Below the pieces are notes generated by a model. It did no database searches and was not told where the DNA came from. It saw only the letters and a list, made by a program, of their open reading frames with translations. The translations under genes and the position numbers were made by a program. Positions 12,128-64,000 of a DNA stretch of 64,000 nucleotides are shown one piece after another; position 1 is the first letter of the stretch; each line of letters opens with the position of its first letter. This DNA is from Pseudobdellovibrionaceae bacterium (GTDB lineage: Bacteria; Bdellovibrionota; Bdellovibrionia; Bdellovibrionales; Bdellovibrionaceae), in NCBI GenBank assembly GCA_019637955.1, contig JAHBUS010000003.1, forward strand, positions 248,001 through 312,000, read 5' to 3'.

Positions 12128-13072
12128 ATGCGGTTGTTCTTCGGTTTCACTCTCTTCGTCTCGCTTTTCATGATGATGGCTTGCCAGCCGTCTCGACCGG
12201 GCTCGAATTCGAACATCGCGCTCAATTGGGACGCATCCGATAAACTCATCCATGGCAGCACCGCCGCCGAGTCGTCGCGTTTCGGTTTGGCGATGATGAT
12301 CGTGCGCGGAGAAAAGTGGAGCACCTGTTCGGCCACGATCATCGGCCGCCGTTTGATTCTGACGGCAGCACATTGTCTCTCCCATCTTCAAGAGAGTCCC
12401 GCGCGCTTGGTTCTGTGGCGCAATCCCTTGACCCGCGACGCCTCTGGCGCCTCTCAACCCTCGAACGCGGACGGGCTCATGGAGCCCATCGCCGAGATCG
12501 TCCGTCATGTGCGCCACCCCTTGTTCCGCGATGGCGACACGCAGAACGGCTACGACTTGGCGGTGGGTTACACCGACCGGGATTTTCCGGCCGACATGGC
12601 GCCGGTCGCGCTCGCGCCTAAAAACTGGCTCGCGCTTCCGATTCTGAAGTTCTATTTCGTGGGGGCGGGTTCCAAGCATCCCAACCCGATGATGGATCAA
12701 ACGGCGCAGACGCTTCAGCAAGGCGACGTGACCGGTGAAACGACCGTCACGCGGGCGTCGTACATGGGATGGATGGGCGATGCGTTTTCGCATTCACCGT
12801 TGAACCCGGGCGATCGTTTGGTCTCAGCCACCGAAAGTTTGCAGCGAACCTTCATCTGCAAAGGCGACTCGGGGGGAGCGCTAGTTCAGCGCAATGACGA
12901 TGGTTCCTCGATGCAGGTCGGAATTCTGGTCACGACGTTTATGCGAAAATTTGAAGGTCAGCCCGTTTGCTACGGATCGGCGATGACGTCGGTCCCGGTC
13001 AGCGCGCACGCCGATTGGATTCAAAAGACCATGTTGGACTTGAGCAACTATTCAAAAGCTGAGACTCGGTGA
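12128..13072 (+). CDS. trypsin-like serine protease, lipid-anchored
   Basis: A 314-residue S1-family protease. The signal ends in the lipobox Met-Met-Ala-Cys (Cys19). The catalytic triad is visible: His82 in TAAHC, Asp143 in NGYDLAVG and Ser248 in GDSGGA. Length suits a single S1 domain. ATG at 12128 is preferred because GGGGGA lies just upstream, whereas the in-frame extension to 11984 has no signal-like start. As a surface or periplasmic protease it fits the rich secreted hydrolase set of this genome. It is the last core gene before the AT-rich island. Confidence 0.88.
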   Translation: MRLFFGFTLFVSLFMMMACQPSRPGSNSNIALNWDASDKLIHGSTAAESSRFGLAMMIVRGEKWSTCSATIIGRRLILTAAHCLSHLQESPARLVLWRNPLTRDASGASQPSNADGLMEPIAEIVRHVRHPLFRDGDTQNGYDLAVGYTDRDFPADMAPVALAPKNWLALPILKFYFVGAGSKHPNPMMDQTAQTLQQGDVTGETTVTRASYMGWMGDAFSHSPLNPGDRLVSATESLQRTFICKGDSGGALVQRNDDGSSMQVGILVTTFMRKFEGQPVCYGSAMTSVPVSAHADWIQKTMLDLSNYSKAETR

Positions 13073-13120
13073 ATGTCGGCTTGTCTGTGTGTCAGGCGTC
13101 AAAGATGCTGTGGATTTTGA

Positions 13121-14662
13121 TCATTTAAGGCAATTTGCGACTTTGCCTCTGCCAGCAATTGATCTAATCTCGTTGAGGCTATCGCTTTCAAAGGCTCGTG
13201 TCGCTGGCCAGTGCTTTACCTTTTTGAATGAAAAACCATCTTTTTTGGTGCAAAGCCATATGCCTTCTTTGCTTAACAGGCCAACCCCATTAGCGTTTAC
13301 GAGGCGCGCGTATGAGCAGACCTGTCCAAAGTCTTTTTGAAGTTGGTCATTAGTAATGATCGACATCTTTGCCTCCCAAACCCAATCAGCAGTAATTGAT
13401 TTTTCTCTGCTGTTGTCTTTTGCGTTTATTAGGTAGTCCGGGATGACTTTGTCTTTGCGACCTACCCTGAGCTTAACCTGTCTACGCCAATCCGATTTCT
13501 TGAATCCAAGTTCATTAAGCAGTGGTTCAAGGATTTGAATTTCGACGTCTCTTTCTGTCCTAATTCGCGTATTGGCGATTTCTTTGTCGCTAAGCCTAGG
13601 AAGAGCGCTAATGTCCATTCCCTTGCTCTCCAAAAGGATCAGTAGGCGATCGTAGTATTTTTTTGCGATCGGCTTTCCGTTGACTCCGTGCATGTTCGAC
13701 CTAACTAGAGGAAACTGTGAGAATAATAGATCTGATTTGAGTTCCCTTAGAGTTATTGGTTCGACAAGTTGAGGAAGACCCATCCAAACAGTGTTGTAGA
13801 ATCCACGAAATGGTTCAACGCCACCGGGCCGGACAGCGCGCCAGATTGAATGGATTCGGCTCCTCGGGCTGAGGCAATACATCACAATAATGTCGCCCAC
13901 AGAGGTCTCTTTACTGCCCTGCCAAAAAGTTCGAGTTCTTTCGTCGATATTGTCGAGGAACTCGAAATCACCGTTGTTTGAGATTCCTCCTCCGACGAAC
14001 CACGCTCTATTAGGCTCTGGTAGATTTGAAATTTCGGGAAACTTCAGGTCTACGACTTCGGGAGCGAAGCCATAGAGAAAAACCGGAAGATGTTCGGTCT
14101 CTAGATCCAGAGAGACCCAAAAGTTGAAGAGAGATTTGCATATCTCAAGGTAGTAGAAAAACCTGGCGTCGTAGTCGCTCTTCGGTGGGACAGGAGGGAG
14201 GAATATCCCGAATTCACCAAAGATCTTTTCGAGAGCATAAAAATTAGGATAAAAATAGTATGGGAAGAAAAACTTGGGGTACATGCAGTATAAAGCTGCC
14301 GAAAGAGTCTTAATGTCGTCTACTTCGAAAAGTGATGCTTCCTCATCTTCATCGGGGCAGAGAGTGTCGACCCCTTGGAAGTAGGCTTCAGCCTCAGGCC
14401 ATGAATCTACTGAACTCGGGATCAGCTTGTCTTTTTCACATTGTCGTAATTCGCGAATTGCGTCGCTAACGCTTTCTATCACGGTCTTAACATCATAATT
14501 ACTCGGATGCAGGGTTCCCTCGTAGGCCCAGCTGCTAGTAAATTCTTGGAGAGACACGTCGTGCTTTGCATGTCTTTCCTCAAGATTGGCGAAAAACTCA
14601 AGCCATTGCTTTCCCTTTGATGACTCTAGATACATATCCCAGAGGAACTTATTCAGTTTCAT
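13121..14662 (-). CDS. EVE-like (PUA-fold) domain fused to HsdR-N-type PD-(D/E)xK nuclease; candidate restriction/anti-phage effector
   Basis: A 513-residue protein with three parts. Residues 1-215 are a helical region with an aromatic segment FFFPYYFYPNF, followed by PPVPPKSDYDARFFYYLE, of a kind I associate with McrB-like and other restriction proteins. Residues about 219-350 look like an EVE or ASCH/PUA-like domain (WFVGGG, then TFWQGSKETSVGDIIVMY, then IWRAV); such domains often sense modified bases. Residues about 365-480 match the HsdR N-terminal nuclease: E374, P-D409-Y, E430-A-K432 and Q441. There is no helicase domain, so this is not a full HsdR. Base use is visibly AT-richer than the flanks, which suggests horizontal acquisition. 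Confidence 0.75.
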   Translation of the reverse strand: MKLNKFLWDMYLESSKGKQWLEFFANLEERHAKHDVSLQEFTSSWAYEGTLHPSNYDVKTVIESVSDAIRELRQCEKDKLIPSSVDSWPEAEAYFQGVDTLCPDEDEEASLFEVDDIKTLSAALYCMYPKFFFPYYFYPNFYALEKIFGEFGIFLPPVPPKSDYDARFFYYLEICKSLFNFWVSLDLETEHLPVFLYGFAPEVVDLKFPEISNLPEPNRAWFVGGGISNNGDFEFLDNIDERTRTFWQGSKETSVGDIIVMYCLSPRSRIHSIWRAVRPGGVEPFRGFYNTVWMGLPQLVEPITLRELKSDLLFSQFPLVRSNMHGVNGKPIAKKYYDRLLILLESKGMDISALPRLSDKEIANTRIRTERDVEIQILEPLLNELGFKKSDWRRQVKLRVGRKDKVIPDYLINAKDNSREKSITADWVWEAKMSIITNDQLQKDFGQVCSYARLVNANGVGLLSKEGIWLCTKKDGFSFKKVKHWPATRAFESDSLNEIRSIAGRGKVANCLK

Positions 14663-14731
14663 GAAAAACTAGTCATCACGATTAGCAGGCAAGCCATTTT
14701 AGATTCGAATTGCCGACTATTTCCTGCGTGA

Positions 14732-14760
14732 TTAGGAATTATATATGACACTAATATAAT
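14732..14760. promoter_or_regulatory. candidate overlapping divergent promoters
   Basis: Two perfect TATAAT boxes face in opposite directions: plus strand 14755-14760 and minus strand 14743-14738. The two boxes plus one flanking base form a 7-bp inverted repeat 9 bp apart. They sit in the AT-rich gap between the nuclease gene and the membrane-protein gene. The matching -35 boxes are poor (TTAGGA on plus, CTCAGG on minus). The geometry means one polymerase would exclude the other, or a dimeric regulator could bind across both. Confidence 0.45.
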
Positions 14761-14832
14761 CCTGAGGGCAGAATTAATAGAAGGCAATTTAAATTGTGTT
14801 TAGCATTCATGACCTATGAAATAGAGGTTTGA

Positions 14833-15480
14833 TTGAATAGAGTAGAGTATCAGAAAAGTGCGATCGAGAAGTTCATCTCCATTCTCGAGTCTAGATTCTC
14901 TTCTCCATTTTTTGGACCGCTTATTTTGTCATGGAGTATTCTCAACTGGCGAATTCCCATTTACTTGGTATTTGGGGGAGATGCTTCGAGAGCTACTTAC
15001 ATCGCAGAGTATTTACACGCAGCTTCAGCACTAGATACAGTGATTTGGCCCGCATTGATCGGTGGGGCTTACTGTTTTGGTGGGCCTATTGTTTCAGCTA
15101 TGTATGATCGTTTTCTTGCAAAGCTAGCTCAGCGTGAAGTGCGAATCAGAATTAAAGAAGATCAGGACCTCGAGTACTACAGAATCTACAACACCGTTCC
15201 CGGCGAATTCTTCGAGGCGTTGAGGAAACATGCAAAAAATTTAGCTGAAATGGGCGGTAATCTAAGCGCCGCTCTCAAAATGCCAGATCTGTCGAATGAT
15301 CGAAATGTTTTCGCTTCTGTCGTCAAGCAAACCGTCGATCTGGTTGAAAAAGTCCGCGATATGGATAAGCTATTGGAGCCATTTCCCGACCTGAGCATTG
15401 CTCAGCCGTCTGAGGTTATTGAGCGGCATTCAAAATCTAAGAAAATTTATAAAAAGAAGGTTTTCGGCGAGGGCGCTTAA
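14833..15480 (+). CDS. two-helix membrane protein of the AT-rich island, family unknown
   Basis: A 215-residue protein starting at TTG 14833 behind AGAGG. Residues about 25-48 and 70-92 are hydrophobic and form two likely membrane helices. The rest is a charged cytoplasmic region rich in Glu and Lys, ending in a basic tail. I do not recognise the family. It is divergent from the EVE-nuclease gene, shares its AT-rich composition and is the only other gene in the island. A linked role, such as a membrane effector or immunity partner, is possible but is inference from position. Confidence 0.65.
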   Translation: MNRVEYQKSAIEKFISILESRFSSPFFGPLILSWSILNWRIPIYLVFGGDASRATYIAEYLHAASALDTVIWPALIGGAYCFGGPIVSAMYDRFLAKLAQREVRIRIKEDQDLEYYRIYNTVPGEFFEALRKHAKNLAEMGGNLSAALKMPDLSNDRNVFASVVKQTVDLVEKVRDMDKLLEPFPDLSIAQPSEVIERHSKSKKIYKKKVFGEGA

Positions 15481-15487
15481 AGTTAGC

Positions 15488-16369
15488 TTACAGCTGTAGC
15501 AAAACTTCGAGCGGCGCTACATCCACGGGGCGCTCCAGCGAGAACCGCTGACCCTTGTAAGTGCCCTCGATCCGCTCGCAGGATAGCGCGAACTCCTCCC
15601 ACAACGGCGACAGAGAAGGGCCTCCGCCATACAGGGCGTCTCCCAAGAGCGGCGCGCTTTCGAAAGCCATTTGCACGCGGATCTGGTGCGTGCGTCCGGT
15701 GAGAAGCTTGATCTCTTGCCGGCACCATCCGTTTTCCAAATTCTGACGCCCGAGCACCTCAAGATCGCAGCGAACCGTGTAGTCCGCAGACTCGGTGGGC
15801 GAGAGCTCGCGGGGAGCGCGGTCGGTCTTTTTCATCCAGTGCGTCCAAAGTCCCGACCCTCGTAGCGGCGCGGGTCCGATGCTGGCGTAGATTTTTTCGC
15901 TGGTGGGAAGCGTGTCCGAATTCATCACGCGCGCCGCAATGTGGGATGTCGCGAACAAAAGCAGACCTCTCGTGCCGACATCTAGGCGGCTCAGACCCCA
16001 AAGTTCACGGCCCGTTTGCGCTTCGAGCGCCGCTTTGACGTTTTCAATTTGATTGTCAAGAGTCGGGTGAGACGGAACGCCCGCCGGTTTCCAGGCCGCG
16101 ATCCAATCCTGTTCTTCGTGGGCCACACGAATTTTTGTCAGCTGTTCTTGAGGAAAGCGTTTGGGCCGAAGGTGCACGCGGATCAGGTCATTTGCTTGAA
16201 AGGTGGGCACCTCGTCGGGCGACCAACGTTTTTGATTGCGATAAATCGCGCCAAAACGAACGAGCTCCTCCAGGGCATTCTTGCTCAGTGCGAAAAAACT
16301 CCGCACAAAGTCCAGGCCGTCGGTGACCTCGGGAACAAGGGCGAACTGAATGCGGTCCGAAGAGTTCAT
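15488..16369 (-). CDS. RluA-family pseudouridine synthase
   Basis: A roughly 293-residue RNA pseudouridine synthase. The catalytic motif reads LSRLDVGTRGLLLFA, with the conserved Asp of the RluA family. The later TGRTHQIRVQMA and LLGDALYGG match the family's other conserved blocks. The N-terminal S4-like region is diverged. ATG at 16369 is chosen; an in-frame TTG at 16405 would add 12 residues, and neither has a good ribosome site. The target uridine (rRNA or tRNA) cannot be read from sequence. Confidence 0.85.
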   Translation of the reverse strand: MNSSDRIQFALVPEVTDGLDFVRSFFALSKNALEELVRFGAIYRNQKRWSPDEVPTFQANDLIRVHLRPKRFPQEQLTKIRVAHEEQDWIAAWKPAGVPSHPTLDNQIENVKAALEAQTGRELWGLSRLDVGTRGLLLFATSHIAARVMNSDTLPTSEKIYASIGPAPLRGSGLWTHWMKKTDRAPRELSPTESADYTVRCDLEVLGRQNLENGWCRQEIKLLTGRTHQIRVQMAFESAPLLGDALYGGGPSLSPLWEEFALSCERIEGTYKGQRFSLERPVDVAPLEVLLQL

Positions 16370-16434
16370 TCTTGCGGGCTTACACGATGCAACGAAGGTC
16401 TGCAATTGAAAGAAACGGTGTTAGCGTTGAGTGA

Positions 16435-17100
16435 ATGTCATTTGCTCAGGAACCCATTTTTCAATGGCTCTCGCAATATGCTTACCAGCCCGAAGTCGTC
16501 TACTTCGGCGTTTTCGCGATGATGATCGCCAGCGGCTTCGGTTTTCCGATGCCCGAAGAGGTGACGATCGTCAGCGTGGGCATCATCACGTACATGGGCG
16601 CGCATCCCGAGCATTTTCCACCACCGTATCCGGGAGCCCCGGTTGTCAACGGCTACGAAGCGGCGGCCATCACCCTCTTCTCGGTGGTGTTCGCCGATCT
16701 GCTCGTGTTCTCCATCGGCCGTTTCTTTGGGCGCAAGCTCATGAAGCGCAACTGGTTCAAGCGTCTGTTCAGCGATGAGCGCATGGCGCGCGTGAATGAG
16801 TTCATGAAAAAGTACGGCGTCTACGCCGCGTTCATCTTTCGCTTCACCCCGGGCCTGCGCTTCCCGGCGCACATCGCGATGGGCATGACGAACTTTTCGA
16901 TGTGGCAGTTCGTTCTGGTCGACGGCTTGGCCGCGCTCATCAGCGTGCCGACGCAGATCTTGCTGATCTACCATTACGGCGAACCGATCCTGGGCGCCTT
17001 GCAAAAATTTAAGTACGTGATCTTCGGCGCGCTGGCGGTCGCTTTGATCGCCTACTTCGTGCGCAAACTCTACCTCCGACTTCGCACCCGCACCGCTTAG
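16435..17100 (+). CDS. DedA family membrane protein
   Basis: A 221-residue DedA (SNARE-associated/VTT) protein. It shows the family's re-entrant region GFGFPMPEEVTIVSVG, the central GRFFGRK and the basic-plus-Pro block FIFRFTPGLRFPAHIAMG, followed by two more membrane helices. DedA proteins are thought to act as lipid scramblases or transporters in the inner membrane, for example for undecaprenyl phosphate. Divergent from the pseudouridine synthase gene with a short gap. Confidence 0.9.
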   Translation: MSFAQEPIFQWLSQYAYQPEVVYFGVFAMMIASGFGFPMPEEVTIVSVGIITYMGAHPEHFPPPYPGAPVVNGYEAAAITLFSVVFADLLVFSIGRFFGRKLMKRNWFKRLFSDERMARVNEFMKKYGVYAAFIFRFTPGLRFPAHIAMGMTNFSMWQFVLVDGLAALISVPTQILLIYHYGEPILGALQKFKYVIFGALAVALIAYFVRKLYLRLRTRTA

Positions 17101-59515: not shown

Positions 59516-59589
59516 GGTGACATGGCCGAGTAGTTAGGCAGCGCTCTGCAAAAGCGTGTACGGGGGTGCGAATCCCTCTGTCACCTCCA
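59516..59589 (+). tRNA. tRNA-Cys (anticodon GCA)
   Basis: A 74-base cloverleaf including an encoded CCA end. The acceptor stem GGTGACA pairs with TGTCACC, the D-arm runs from GCC to GGC, the anticodon stem GCGCT/AGCGT frames loop CTGCAAA with anticodon GCA, and the T-arm GGGGG/CCCTC is normal. It is the presumed integration site of the downstream element, although no duplicated 3' end is visible in this window. Confidence 0.95.
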
Positions 59590-59694
59590 AAAAACACCCA
59601 CGAAAAAATCGAAAAATGAGCCAAGCTCTCGAAATCTCGAGTGAGTGTTTTCGCATACTTAGCGCAGTTCAGATCGAGCAAACATAACCCCACA

Positions 59695-59758
59695 CCACCC
59701 AAAACCACCCGGCAAGGTGGGTTTCAGGTGGGTCCGAGGTGGGACTGAAATTTCAGTC
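59695..59758. repeat. iteron-like GGTGGG cluster with 16-bp palindrome
   Basis: Three direct GGTGGG repeats at 59716, 59727 and 59738 are spaced exactly 11 bases apart, on the same DNA face. Two inverted copies (CCACCC) lie at 59695 and 59705. The cluster runs into a perfect palindrome, GACTGAAATTTCAGTC (59743-59758). This resembles a replication-initiator or regulator binding array and lies between the tRNA and the element's first gene. Confidence 0.6.
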
Positions 59759-59950: not shown

Positions 59951-60110
59951 CCCGCTCGCAGCCAACTCCCAGCAACCTCCCATGAATTGCTGCTGGTGGC
60001 CGCTCTCCGCTAATCCAGCACCCACTCGCAACAAGTTGGAGCGGGTGCTGGATTAGCTCCGGCATCCACCATCATCAATTCATGGGAGGTGGGAGTTGGC
60101 TGCGAGCGGG
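59951..60110. repeat. ~160-nt near-continuous inverted repeat (giant hairpin)
   Basis: The outer arms are 59951-59999 and 60066-60110. They match over about 45 positions with one 4-base insertion and two single mismatches. After a short unpaired stretch the inner arms CTAATCCAGCACCC (60010-60023) and GGGTGCTGGATTAG (60043-60056) are perfect. The 19-base tip can pair further. It ends 26 bases before the first element gene. An origin, transfer or protein-binding cruciform is likely; no reverse transcriptase gene, as needed for a retron, is present. Confidence 0.85.
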
Positions 60111-60135: not shown

Positions 60136-60933
60136 ATGTTTTCTCTCTCCCTCGGGCCCTCCCTAGCGGCAAAGAGAAGAGTCGTGCAGGAAAAGAACAC
60201 TCGTCTCACGGACAGGGACGCGGAGATCTTGCGGTTTGTCTGCGAGATGAAGTTTGCGAGCTCAACGGATGTCTATGAGAACTTCTTCAAGGTTCTCGTG
60301 GCAGGCGGTGAGAGCAAATCGAAGCGTTGGGCGTTTAAGCGACTTCAGAAGCTAGAAAGCGAAGATTTGCTGATGAGAAAGTTCTCTCATCAAATTCGCG
60401 AAAGTCTCTTCGTCACAACGCCGAAAGGTTTTCGCATTTGCGAGGAAGCGATCTCGAGCCTGAAGCTTCCGCGTCCGAGCTTCGGGATCAACTACAACAC
60501 CTTTGATCATGATTGGCTCATGATCAAAATCCGAAGGGCTCTTGAGAAATCGGGCGAAGCGCGCGTTTGGTTCTCCGAACGGGTGCTTTTAGCAAACCCC
60601 GATCTTCTCGACGGCTTTTCTCAAGATTACTTTCCGGACGGGGTTTATGAGGCCCCGGACGGGACCTTGATCGCCGTTGAGCTGGAGATCTCGCGCAAAG
60701 TACGAAGCCTGTACCGGGAAAAGTTGAACCGGTACGTGAAATACATGCGCGAGACCAATGGCTCAAAGACGGCGATCAAGAGCGTTACCATTCTCGTCGC
60801 CAAAACCGCCGTTCGGAAGGTCATCGAAGACGAAGCTCGAATCTTCGGCGACTACTTTCGCATTCTCCCTTTGGGCGAGTTCCTCGCCCAACACCAACCC
60901 CAACTGAAAAAGGAAAAGTCACATGAAACATAA
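60136..60933 (+). CDS. replication-relaxation family protein (first copy)
   Basis: A 265-residue protein with an N-terminal winged helix (LTDRDAEILRFVCEMKFAS) and a C-terminal restriction-nuclease-like half holding Pro167-Asp168 and Glu182/Glu184 (FPDGVYE, then IAVELEIS). This is the replication-relaxation layout seen on plasmids and integrative elements. ATG at 60136 has AAAGGA upstream. It lies just after the giant hairpin, which it may bind. Its end overlaps the next gene by 11 bp. Confidence 0.75.
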   Translation: MFSLSLGPSLAAKRRVVQEKNTRLTDRDAEILRFVCEMKFASSTDVYENFFKVLVAGGESKSKRWAFKRLQKLESEDLLMRKFSHQIRESLFVTTPKGFRICEEAISSLKLPRPSFGINYNTFDHDWLMIKIRRALEKSGEARVWFSERVLLANPDLLDGFSQDYFPDGVYEAPDGTLIAVELEISRKVRSLYREKLNRYVKYMRETNGSKTAIKSVTILVAKTAVRKVIEDEARIFGDYFRILPLGEFLAQHQPQLKKEKSHET

Positions 60934-61906
60934 CCCTTCTACTCAGCAGTCCACCCAAAAACCCAACTCGTTCTTTAACGGGAAGAACCCTTTCGTTCGA
61001 TACCCAAACAAAGCGAGCGCGCGAGGTGCTCCAGTTCAGGTGCCGCACGGTCTCGCTTCGCGGGACCAGGCGTCACCCTCCTTCCCGGGGGGTGATTCAG
61101 TCCAAGCACCGCGAGTTCCCGCTTCGCGGGACCAGGCGTCGCTCTCCTCCGCACAGCGAGACACGACTGCGCATTCACCAAAACCTATGCCCGCAGTTCA
61201 GGCTCATGCTTCGCCCTCCTCGCCGCGGGCGACAGTCAACCAGGACGGCATTCTCAAATTCCTTCTCGACATGAAGTACGCCCGAAAGAGCCAATTACTA
61301 AAGCGCTTTGGCGATAACGACCAGACGAGAAGCGAGATTGGTCAGCTCTTGCGAGCTGGCTTTATTAAATCAAAAGACCGCGATCTCACCGCAAGATCGC
61401 TCCTGATTCCCACATTGGAGGGCTACAAGCATCTTCAGACGGGAGCCAAAGGCATGCTGCTGGCTGAGCCCGTGAAGCGGATCTTTGACCCCATGGTTCG
61501 TCATGACCTAATCCTGGGCGACATTCGGCTGCGCTTCGAGGAGCTAAACTTCATTAAGAAGTGGAACTCCGAAGAAATGCTGAAGGTCGTCCCAGGCTTC
61601 GCGAAGCTCATGCGCGATCTTCCAGATGCAATGTGCGAGCGAAATGACGGGAACTCTTACTTCCTTGAGCTTGAGATCTCGCCCAAGAATCGAAAGGTCT
61701 ATGAAGACCGGGTTGAGGAGTACAAAGCGATCCTGGAGATGGATGAGATCAAGGCTCAAGGAATTAACGGCGTTATTTTCCTTTGTACCGATCCGAAGGT
61801 GCTCGAGACCCTCAAGTCGGTCACCCCGAAAAACACGAAAGCCTTCTCGGTCTTACCAATCACCCGCTACCTTAAAGATTTCATTCTGGAAGAGGTAGGC
61901 GTATGA
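60923..61906 (+). CDS. replication-relaxation family protein (second copy) with disordered N-terminus
   Basis: A 327-residue paralogue of the preceding protein. Residues 1-105 are a Ser/Pro/Gln-rich disordered region containing two copies of ASRDQAS. Residues 106-330 repeat the winged helix (GILKFLLDMKYARKSQLLKR) and nuclease-like core (LPDAMCE, then YFLELEIS; Pro234-Asp235, Glu249/251). It overlaps the ATPase gene by four bases. The two paralogues may form a heterodimer at the element's origin. Confidence 0.72.
   Translation: MKHNPSTQQSTQKPNSFFNGKNPFVRYPNKASARGAPVQVPHGLASRDQASPSFPGGDSVQAPRVPASRDQASLSSAQRDTTAHSPKPMPAVQAHASPSSPRATVNQDGILKFLLDMKYARKSQLLKRFGDNDQTRSEIGQLLRAGFIKSKDRDLTARSLLIPTLEGYKHLQTGAKGMLLAEPVKRIFDPMVRHDLILGDIRLRFEELNFIKKWNSEEMLKVVPGFAKLMRDLPDAMCERNDGNSYFLELEISPKNRKVYEDRVEEYKAILEMDEIKAQGINGVIFLCTDPKVLETLKSVTPKNTKAFSVLPITRYLKDFILEEVGV
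61054..61140 (+). repeat. 66-bp-spaced direct repeat within a coding region
   Basis: The 21-base sequence at 61054-61074 recurs exactly at 61120-61140; the distance between copies is 66 bases, so frame is kept. Each copy also contains the stem CGC-TTC-GCG, and the second has the larger TCCCGC-TTC-GCGGGA. It encodes the repeated ASRDQAS in the disordered N-terminus of the second replication-relaxation protein. Confidence 0.85.
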
Positions 61907-63186
61907 CCGAGCCCAGGCTCGTGCTGGGAAGAGTGCAAGGACGCACTCTCTTTCCCCAAAAAGAATCCCTGACCGAAGCCCAGATGAACCACCACGTTCA
62001 CGTGGTGGGCCCTTCAGGCTACGGCAAGACGGTGCTTCTCACTCACGTCATTAAACACCAAATCCAAACCGGCAAAGGTCTTCTCTTCATGGATTTGAAG
62101 GCCGACATGGAAACGATTCTTCACTTCTCGAAAATCGCGGCGGACGCAGGCCGTGCCGAGGACTTGCAGATCTTCTCGATCTCAAATCCCGAACTCTCAT
62201 GGAGCTACAACCCTTTTCAGGGCGACACCGCGAACCAGCTTCGGGACAAGATCATGGCCGCTTTAGATTGGTCAGAGCCCTATTACAAACATCAAAGCGC
62301 GAGTTTTCTGCTCAAACTCCTGATCGGGCTCAAACGCTTAAGTGCTCGACAGGAAATCACCTGCACGCCGGCGCTAGTCCGCGAGTGTTCCACTCGCGGC
62401 GATGAGATAGCCAAATGCATTCGGAAGTTGGCGAAGGAGGAAATACATGAGGCCCGGTGCTTGGAAGAGGCTTATCAATTCATCTCGACCCCGGAGGGAC
62501 AAAAATCTCTTTCGGGCCTTCGCACCCAGCTCGACAGTCTGGTCCTCAGTGATTTTGGAAACCTGATTTCAGGTGAAGGGGAGAATCAGATCGATCTTTT
62601 CAAATCAGCGCGGGACTCGAAGATCACATTGATCTTTCTCGATTCCCGCAGGTACCCGAGCACCGCGAAAACCATGGCGAGGTTCCTTTTGCAGGATCTT
62701 AAAGCCGCGAGCGCCAAGATCGACGCCGAAATCCCGAAAGAGCAGCGAAAACCTTTCGCGGTCATCATTGATGAGTTCGCGGATATCGCGAATGAAGACT
62801 TTGTGGGATTCTTGGACCGAGCGAGAAGTAGTAAAATGATGCTCACGATTGCGCATCAGGAGTTTTCGGATTTGAAGCGAGTAAGTCCTGAGTTTGCCGC
62901 GAGGGTGATGGCAAATACGAGTACGCTGTATGCGTTTATGCAGAAGTTGCCGGAGAGCGCGGAGCTGGTCTCGCGCATGGCAGGAACCAAAGTTGGGTGG
63001 GAAAAGACCGAAAGGGCACAGGGGCTCGGGTTTTGGGATGTCAGGACAGGGGAGAAGAGTCTGAAGCGCGTGGATGAGTTTTTGATTCATCCGAATCAAG
63101 TGAAAACTCTGAGGGTGGGGGAGTGTCTTTCGATAAAGAAGTATCCAAGGACGAAAGTGAGGCTCGTGAAGGTGGATCGGGGGTGA
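61903..63186 (+). CDS. VirD4/TraG-like conjugative coupling ATPase
   Basis: A 427-residue P-loop ATPase of the type IV coupling protein/DUF87-like group. Walker A GPSGYGKT is at residues 36-43, Walker B AVIIDEFADI near 290 and the RAD-type segment LTIAHQEFSDL follows. It lacks the long N-terminal membrane helices of full VirD4, so it may be a soluble or helper form. Together with the two replication-relaxation proteins it suggests a mobilisation module. It overlaps the upstream gene by four bases. Confidence 0.8.
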   Translation: MTEPRLVLGRVQGRTLFPQKESLTEAQMNHHVHVVGPSGYGKTVLLTHVIKHQIQTGKGLLFMDLKADMETILHFSKIAADAGRAEDLQIFSISNPELSWSYNPFQGDTANQLRDKIMAALDWSEPYYKHQSASFLLKLLIGLKRLSARQEITCTPALVRECSTRGDEIAKCIRKLAKEEIHEARCLEEAYQFISTPEGQKSLSGLRTQLDSLVLSDFGNLISGEGENQIDLFKSARDSKITLIFLDSRRYPSTAKTMARFLLQDLKAASAKIDAEIPKEQRKPFAVIIDEFADIANEDFVGFLDRARSSKMMLTIAHQEFSDLKRVSPEFAARVMANTSTLYAFMQKLPESAELVSRMAGTKVGWEKTERAQGLGFWDVRTGEKSLKRVDEFLIHPNQVKTLRVGECLSIKKYPRTKVRLVKVDRG

Positions 63187-63408
63187 TGGTGCTTGCTCCT
63201 GATTGGAGTCCTGCGGCCTCCTGGTCGCTCACACCATCTCAACAGTTCCGCGGCTCCTGCCGCTGCACCTATGTGTCTCGGATAGACCTCGACTCTCGTC
63301 AAAGTGGATCGGGGGTTGGGATTGGAACGCGCTCCTGCGCGGGGGAGTGGGGAGCGGGGAGCGGGGAGCGGAGCTTGCCTCCTGGCTGCTCGCGTGCCGC
63401 TCGCGGTC

Positions 63409-63561
63409 GTCAACCTCCGCGTTGACAGCTCCAGGCCTCCGGCCTTGCGCCTACATGTCCACGGGTACGTGGACGCCTCCGGCACTGCACCTACTTGCCT
63501 CCCTTTTGCTCGGCGCTTACATGCCCGCGAGTACGCGGGCGGGAACCCGGCCTGCGGCCGG
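63409..63561. repeat. cluster of covarying hairpin repeats in non-coding DNA
   Basis: Two units about 66 bp apart share GCGCYTACATG before a hairpin: GTCCACG-GGTA-CGTGGAC (63457-63474) and GCCCGCG-AGTA-CGCGGGC (63523-63540). Their stems differ by two paired compensatory changes. Nearby hairpins are GTCAAC/GTTGAC (63409-63426), AGGCC/GGCCT (63433-63445) and CCGGCC/GGCCGG (63547-63561). The 660 bases between the coupling-protein gene and brnT (63187-63848) otherwise hold no gene I can support. Confidence 0.65.
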
Positions 63562-63567
63562 ATAAGG

Positions 63568-63741: not shown

Positions 63742-63788
63742 ATTTTCCCCCCGCCCACTTCGTGGGGGCGACCGGGCGGGGGGAAAAT
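63742..63788. repeat. 15-bp perfect inverted repeat with C/G tracts
   Basis: ATTTTCCCCCCGCCC (63742-63756) and its exact complement at 63774-63788 enclose 17 bases. The C-tract arm and inner CCCAC/GTGGG make nested stems. It lies 19 bases upstream of the brnT promoter. There is no following T-tract, so a protein-binding or origin/end site is more likely than a terminator. Confidence 0.6.
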
Positions 63789-63806: not shown

Positions 63807-63835
63807 TTTACAATGTACGTACATTGTCATATAAT
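63807..63835 (+). promoter_or_regulatory. brnT promoter with embedded palindromic operator
   Basis: The -35 box TTTACA (63807-63812; one mismatch) and the perfect -10 box TATAAT (63830-63835) are 17 bases apart. A perfect 18-base palindrome, ACAATGTACGTACATTGT (63810-63827), overlaps the -35 box and fills most of the spacer. This is the geometry for auto-repression, as expected for BrnTA operons in which the BrnA antitoxin represses. Confidence 0.8.
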
Positions 63836-63848
63836 TGAGGAGGCTATT

Positions 63849-64000
63849 TTGGAATTTGAATGGGACGAAAGAAAGTCAGTGCGCAATTTTGCGAAGCACA
63901 GGGTGAGATTCGAGGAGGCGATGACGGTTTTCGCAGATCCCAATTACCTCGAGTTTTACGATGACCCGAGTAGCGAGTCCGAAGATCGGTTCATCAGGAT
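63849..64000 (+). CDS. brnT: BrnT-family ribonuclease toxin, 3' end outside window
   Basis: A partial frame from TTG 63849 encoding a FEWDERKSVRNFAKH start followed by RFEEAMTVFADPNYL, the conserved N-terminal signature of BrnT RNase toxins. The GAGGAGG at 63837-63843 lies partly upstream of the predicted transcript start, so the message may have a very short leader. The antitoxin gene brnA is expected just beyond the window. Confidence 0.82.
   Translation, partial: MEFEWDERKSVRNFAKHRVRFEEAMTVFADPNYLEFYDDPSSESEDRFIR

Follow-up and report, generated by a model that had tools for sequence, protein, structure and literature searches.

The closest known relatives of the locus reported here are plasmids with MOB_C relaxases. 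In pAM373, oriT reportedly consists of an extended inverted repeat (~140 bp) with short direct repeats next to it, and Francia and Clewell, to whom this is attributed (2002), are also said to have found that TraX nicks pAD1 within its inverted repeat. MOB_C relaxases such as pAD1 TraX combine a PD-(D/E)XK domain with an N-terminal winged helix-turn-helix (HTH); they bind direct repeats far from nic, and no covalent intermediate has been observed (PMC12857230). The literature describes CloDF13 MobB/MobC as a further case, in which a MOB_C relaxase works with an element-encoded coupling protein. Islands that carry an oriT-type sequence without a relaxase are known as iOriT or oriT-mimicking elements (PMC11389934, PMC8136818). 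Among predatory bacteria, islands at Bdellovibrio tRNA genes have been noted earlier and merely suspected of being ICE-like (PMC3539863).

We analyzed a 64,000-nucleotide stretch of DNA (the window) from a Pseudobdellovibrionaceae bacterium, which contains a nested hairpin of 160 nt. We conclude that this hairpin is very probably the oriT of an integrative conjugative element (ICE) with a relaxase of the MOB_C type (Table 1). The original prediction, made from the sequence letters, had described nested inverted repeats with a 4-base insertion and a pairing tip, and a repeat finder recovered this arrangement. The outer arms are 21 nt long and 100% paired; beyond a 4-nt insertion in the left arm follows a second pair of arms (59975-59999/60066-60090; 25 nt, 92% paired), and the inner arms (60009-60027/60039-60057; 19 nt with one mismatch, 14-15 contiguous pairs) close on a tip of 11 nt. 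The distance of 26 bases predicted between the hairpin and the first gene of the element was likewise correct (hairpin end at 60110, mobC1 ATG at 60136). Folded as single-stranded DNA, the hairpin reaches -74.7 kcal/mol, compared with -29.2 ± 3.3 kcal/mol for 200 dinucleotide shuffles, none of which matched the real fold (z = -13.8). RNA folding gave a z of -15.5, so that structure prediction, one of the checks proposed at the outset, puts the fold far beyond chance. The size had been called unusual, and we agree: for a MOB_C oriT, both its 160 bases and its continuity are out of the ordinary.

Table 1 Features of the left end of the putative ICE. Coordinates are window positions unless a contig is named; C8 is the contig that holds the window.
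Feature	Coordinates	Strand	Evidence
tRNA-Cys(GCA), insertion site of the element	59516..59589	+	ARAGORN, Rfam tRNA; comM and tRNA synteny kept in relatives
attL core GTCACCTCCAAA (tRNA 3' end plus 2 nt)	59580..59591	+	12-bp repeat
Three direct repeats AGGTGGG, 11-bp period	59715..59743	+	Most relatives have related arrays that differ in sequence
Nested giant hairpin, proposed oriT	59951..60110	.	Fold, arms, 26/26 subfamily loci, 106/291 genomes
Outer left arm, containing CCCGCTCGCAGCC, a direct repeat of inner CCCACTCGCAAC	59951..59971	+	Repeat finder
Inner hairpin	60009..60057	+	Covariance model R1, E 3.6e-8 in own genome
Loop-side conserved motif ACTCGCAACAAG, proposed nic region	60024..60035	+	Class consensus CNCYCWACGA; pAM373 counterpart CGCAACGT
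Outer right arm, inverted copy of outer left arm	60090..60110	+	Repeat finder
mobC1, MOB_C-type relaxase candidate, 265 aa, winged helix and PD-(D/E)XK-like domain	60136..60933	+	NCBIfam NF041423, E 2e-7
mobC2, second MobC-family paralogue, 327 aa, retains PD...ExExxxK	60923..61906	+	NF041423, E 8e-8; weakly matches mobC1
TraD/VirD4-like type IV coupling protein, 427 aa	61903..63186	+	PF12696 E 4e-9, PF02534 E 2e-8, TIGR03743 E 6e-26
attR, identical copy of attL core GTCACCTCCAAA	C8:390306-390317, outside window		~85 bp past integrase gene

A DNA similarity search with the hairpin across 60 relatives found the hairpin itself alone. It was missed elsewhere because its stem sequence varies, and a structure search is needed to find its counterparts. 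In the MobC subfamily, each of the 26 loci for which sequence upstream of mobC is available has a strong hairpin in that position (z of -4.8 to -21); absence from related elements, which the original prediction had named as counting against it, is thus not what we found. The covariation that it had suggested looking for was also present. The inner hairpins of relatives align, their loop is kept as CNCYCWACGA, and their stems change through compensated Watson-Crick swaps, with two-sided changes at 16 of 17 inner pairs in a set of hairpins chosen partly by stem detection, which favors pairing; none of 500 shuffles equaled this number. A covariance-model alignment of 52 distinct hairpins, in which G-U was allowed, has exclusively Watson-Crick pairing throughout pairs 4-15, and its loop is nearly invariant. 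Of 50 hairpins, 37 are enclosed by a perfect inverted repeat that measures 9 or more nt (versus 5% in the background), and in many elements the outer arms bear a copy of the inner core motif. Among ten weaker MobC homologues in other modules, we found an upstream hairpin only at locus L091. This locus, from an Alphaproteobacteria metagenome-assembled genome (MAG), has a strong 73-nt hairpin upstream of a MobC-like gene (z = -12.6) with a different loop that our covariance model does not match, and it is possibly a divergent relative of the class.

Our covariance model of the inner hairpin (R1) located the hairpin in 68 of 141 genomes of the order at an E-value of 0.01 and in 106 of 291 Bdellovibrionota genomes at 1e-4. 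R1 had no match in five further genomes (four Alphaproteobacteria MAGs including that of L091, and one Oligoflexales MAG). Some of these hairpins precede mobC and others follow it; they also occur together with mobC on Bdellovibrio plasmids, and in integrase islands that lack mobC. We inspected 40 R1 sites, mostly picked for having no strong MobC match nearby, so that the following proportions are not frequencies: 24 adjoin a MobC gene, two have a coupling protein with MobC not detected, nine have an integrase only (within ~5 kb), and five have none of these. A frequent order is TrbI, coupling protein, MobC, hairpin, integrase. As its presence downstream of mobC in such modules shows, the hairpin goes with the relaxase in the manner of a cis-acting site.

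These data bear on whether the hairpin could instead act as RNA, either in the leader of the mobC mRNA (i.e., as an attenuator or autoregulatory site) or as a small RNA. Such a role would be in keeping with the gap of 26 nt between the hairpin and the start of mobC1 in the window and with the strong RNA fold; however, in many elements mobC precedes the hairpin, or the hairpin is part of an island that lacks the gene. The core pairs 4-15 include zero G-U, although the covariance model permits it, and over the whole arms G-T mismatches (29) are not above A-C mismatches (51). Furthermore, the hairpin matched no Rfam family. Because the hairpin may precede or follow mobC and its core has no G-U, we reject a leader or small RNA, which we consider very improbable.

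We next turn to the proteins encoded beside the hairpin. MobC1 and MobC2 each matched one family only, NF041423 (MobC replication-relaxation; E 2.2e-7 and 8.4e-8), at 30 bits against a curated cut-off of 200 bits. Pfam gave no match for either protein, and a sequence search of solved structures with MobC gave none; tblastn connected them to annotated mobC genes of conjugative plasmids at E 1e-4 to 5e-4. In an AlphaFold2 model of MobC1 (pLDDT 84, from a seven-sequence alignment), residues 21-110 superpose on winged helices of the MarR family (Z ~10) and residues 129-254 on EcoO109I, a restriction enzyme (Z 9.6; 108 residues at rmsd 2.9). Residues P167, D168, E182, E184, and K188 are invariant in our alignment (A1) and fit the active-site pattern PD...ExExxxK; we equate them with the catalytic residues of TraX. 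The relaxase-like protein of pAM373 has FEIELTMK at the position equivalent to ExExxxK. MobC1 is thus predicted from the model to have the architecture of a MOB_C relaxase, with a MarR-like winged helix followed by an EcoO109I-like endonuclease domain.

Upstream of the element lie a xerC-like recombinase gene, comM, and tRNA-Cys. The attL core (C8:307580 in contig coordinates) and attR are 82.7 kb apart, and the ~82.7-kb segment bounded by this 12-bp repeat of the tRNA-Cys 3' end is, judging by its sequence, a putative ICE, with the hairpin at its left end; the window covers only that end. On the contig beyond the window, a tyrosine integrase gene ends ~85 bp ahead of attR, and just inside the right end are a VirB4/TraC ATPase (E 1.8e-24) and a TrbI/VirB10-like protein (E 2e-7), along with unnamed genes; other T4SS genes are too divergent to name. 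The segment therefore has the hallmarks of an ICE: an integrase, attL and attR as direct repeats at a tRNA, and genes for relaxase, coupling protein, and T4SS. We placed its right end at the 12-bp repeat beside the integrase gene because an empty-site comparison with relatives that keep comM and tRNA-Cys yielded no orthologue of the genes right of attR. Repeats of the tRNA end in the stretches from relatives were just 9-12-bp matches and were left out of the analysis. The AGGTGGG repeats may be relaxase-binding repeats, by analogy with TraX systems, or integrase arm sites. Repeats resembling them flank the att core on the integrase side at attR and in a Bdellovibrionaceae UBA2316 contig, and short direct repeats also stand beside the hairpin in pAM373 and in the plasmid pBdHAGR1. 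The UBA2316 contig holds an integrase, a tRNA 3' fragment, and the hairpin (N-masked) together, and this stretch looks like the attP junction of a circular or tandem element.

Several other features of the element and its genome were observed. The toxin gene of a BrnT-type toxin-antitoxin pair lies just inside the element (window 63813-63998) and runs past the window end. A 15-bp perfect inverted repeat with 17-nt spacing (ATTTTCCCCCCGCCC/GGGCGGGGGGAAAAT; window 63742-63788) looks like a terminator or another palindrome. Non-coding stretches that are GC-rich, partly palindromic, and similar to one another (window 63096-63565, L033:11021-11341, and L033:12085-12507) are possibly a dispersed repeat family inside the element. 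At C8 ~342-381 kb, large ORFs resemble RND metal-efflux pumps and a metal P-type ATPase; named by eye, they are the apparent metal-resistance cargo. The same genome has a second element with another arrangement on contig C7 (43000-56000), with an integrase, a hairpin (C7:48789-48848), MobC, and pieces of a coupling protein, whose match is split over two overlapping frames such that the gene may be broken.

The hairpin also occurs on plasmids and in islands without a relaxase. Three plasmids of Bdellovibrio sp. HAGR004 (pBdHAGR5, pBdHAGR4, and pBdHAGR1) carry MobC, a coupling protein, and the hairpin, despite being typed as "non-mobilizable" by MOB-suite. pBdHAGR1 matches VirB4 and TrbI as well, and from this gene content it looks conjugative. 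The nine integrase islands without MobC or a coupling protein are candidate oriT-only mobilizable elements; their surroundings were covered to ~5 kb, and some lie on short contigs. When some relaxase-less islands are compared with one another or with a complete element, the shared sequence is limited to the hairpin block and to distal or integrase-side blocks; in two of them similarity is almost confined to a 190-bp hairpin block and a distal block. Such sharing is as expected for oriT hitchhikers (iOriT), which these islands appear to be by analogy.

A counterpart outside the phylum is found on pAM373 of Enterococcus faecalis, a plasmid typed MOBC that encodes a replication-relaxation protein (13007-13792) and a TraM-recognition coupling protein (14650-16863). 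The genes for these two proteins flank nested, perfect inverted repeats (outer 18 bp, inner 25 bp, 142-bp span; DNA z = -11.5), which we take to be the experimentally defined oriT of this plasmid. R1 detected the repeat at a modest E of 1.7e-4, and the pAM373 relaxase matched our MobC profile weakly (E 2e-4). The layout of the window, with a large nested inverted repeat adjoining relaxase and coupling-protein genes, is the same as in pAM373; the likeness to this presumed MOB_C oriT from outside the phylum is modest in score.

Together, these data argue for a transfer origin because the hairpin accompanies MobC/MOB_C relaxase genes whether it precedes or follows them, because it is located at one end of an element that is integrated at a tRNA and encodes a coupling protein, a T4SS, and an integrase, because it occurs on Bdellovibrio plasmids, and because its nested architecture, stem core, and loop start are common to the MOBC transfer region of pAM373. 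The original prediction had offered a replication origin, a transfer origin, or an initiator-bound cruciform beside "replication-relaxation genes". Its transfer origin is strongly supported, and the family name it used is right for genes that we read as MOB_C relaxases; an autonomous replication origin found no support. Under that last reading, the hairpin would be a rolling-circle-type origin, used by MobC as initiator either on the excised element or on an ancestral plasmid, a reading that suits both the family name and the hairpin origins common on rolling-circle plasmids. However, the hairpin tracks a coupling protein, a T4SS, and an integrase rather than a replicon, two hairpin-bearing Bdellovibrio plasmids also have ParA-type maintenance genes, and the pAM373 counterpart lies away from the annotated replication initiator. 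We therefore think a dedicated replication origin most unlikely. In some ICEs, oriTs double as replication origins, and it is possible that the oriT is used for replication once the element has excised.

It is less probable still that the hairpin is a recombination site (att or resolution) whose folded strand is used by the integrase in the manner of integron attC. In type A elements the distance from the hairpin to the tRNA att site is no more than ~400 bp, and in other elements the hairpin has integrase genes close by. However, the att core maps to the 3' end of the tRNA and is distinct from the hairpin; on plasmids with no integrase in its vicinity, the hairpin still adjoins mobC, and the pAM373 repeat sits between coupling-protein and relaxase-like genes. 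Finally, a functionless decayed insertion (a fold-back MITE or transposon end), which the long inverted arms resemble, has a negligible probability, as it is refuted by compensatory covariation around a conserved loop, by MobC linkage in dozens of genomes, and by the single copy of the hairpin in the 3.77-Mb genome (a second match is its own reverse complement), which also rules out the high-copy unrelated repeat that the original prediction had considered.

For the hairpin as oriT, the sequences show anatomy and evolution; from these we infer nicking, the position of nic, the strand transferred, a role in termination, and transfer of the element itself, and propose the following. The integrase would excise the element from tRNA-Cys as a circle. 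MobC1, perhaps with MobC2, would use its winged-helix domain to bind the palindrome or a site close to it, and the restriction-enzyme-like domain would nick one strand near the conserved loop. The coupling protein would then deliver the nicked strand to the T4SS. Once transferred, this strand would carry the folded hairpin as the substrate for recognition and for the end joining that closes the circle in the recipient.

The hairpin thus gives Bdellovibrionota a concrete proposed start site for conjugation and a searchable signature for ICEs, relaxase-less islands, and plasmids, among them the three that had been typed as lacking mobility. How the strand is guided and re-ligated is a question for MOB_C relaxases because no covalent intermediate has been seen (PMC12857230), and the conserved hairpin and loop are a direct candidate for this role. 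A broader conjecture, which we hold to be possible but on balance doubtful, is that MOB_C oriTs form one ancient structural class (nested palindrome, GACCAC/CCTGACCA stem core, and CNCYCWACGA-type loop) across Bdellovibrionota, Firmicutes, and Enterobacteria, that the folded hairpin is the substrate on which such a relaxase, for which no covalent intermediate is known, re-joins the strand, and that relaxase-less islands exploit it throughout predatory bacteria.

Compared with pAM373 and pAD1, the locus shares a relaxase family with a winged HTH and a restriction-enzyme fold, and short direct repeats nearby. The inner stem of pAM373 (CCTGACCA...TGGTCAGG) has the same core as most Bdellovibrionota hairpins, and its loop opens with CGCAACGT (a CGCAAC start), where the window hairpin has CGCAACAA. 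Unlike in those plasmids, the window hairpin is nearly continuous, GC-rich, and short-looped; it adjoins mobC1, with the coupling protein downstream, in a chromosomal ICE of a Gram-negative predator; its direct repeats, at a distance of ~200 bp, may be integrase sites; and relaxase sequence similarity is marginal. The CloDF13 record that we used matched neither MobC nor the hairpin. Enterobacterial MOBC/MPF_T conjugative plasmids (e.g., pENT-c88) have a MobC homologue (tblastn E 5e-4) adjoining MobB and, upstream of mobB, nested inverted repeats with GACCACC and an inner arm of GCGCGACCACCCCCTA; they differ in a 69-nt inner loop without the conserved ACGA and in an R1 score at background (E 9.7). 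Like staphylococcal oriT mimics and other iOriT elements (hitchers), the relaxase-less islands pair an integrase with an oriT-type hairpin and have no relaxase nearby; unlike them, they reside in Bdellovibrionota chromosomes and carry a hairpin of MOB_C type, and their pairing with helpers is hypothetical. The MOB_C oriT is known as a kind; its spread in Bdellovibrionota is unexpectedly wide, with apparent oriT-only hitchhiker islands and a detectable link to a Gram-positive plasmid.
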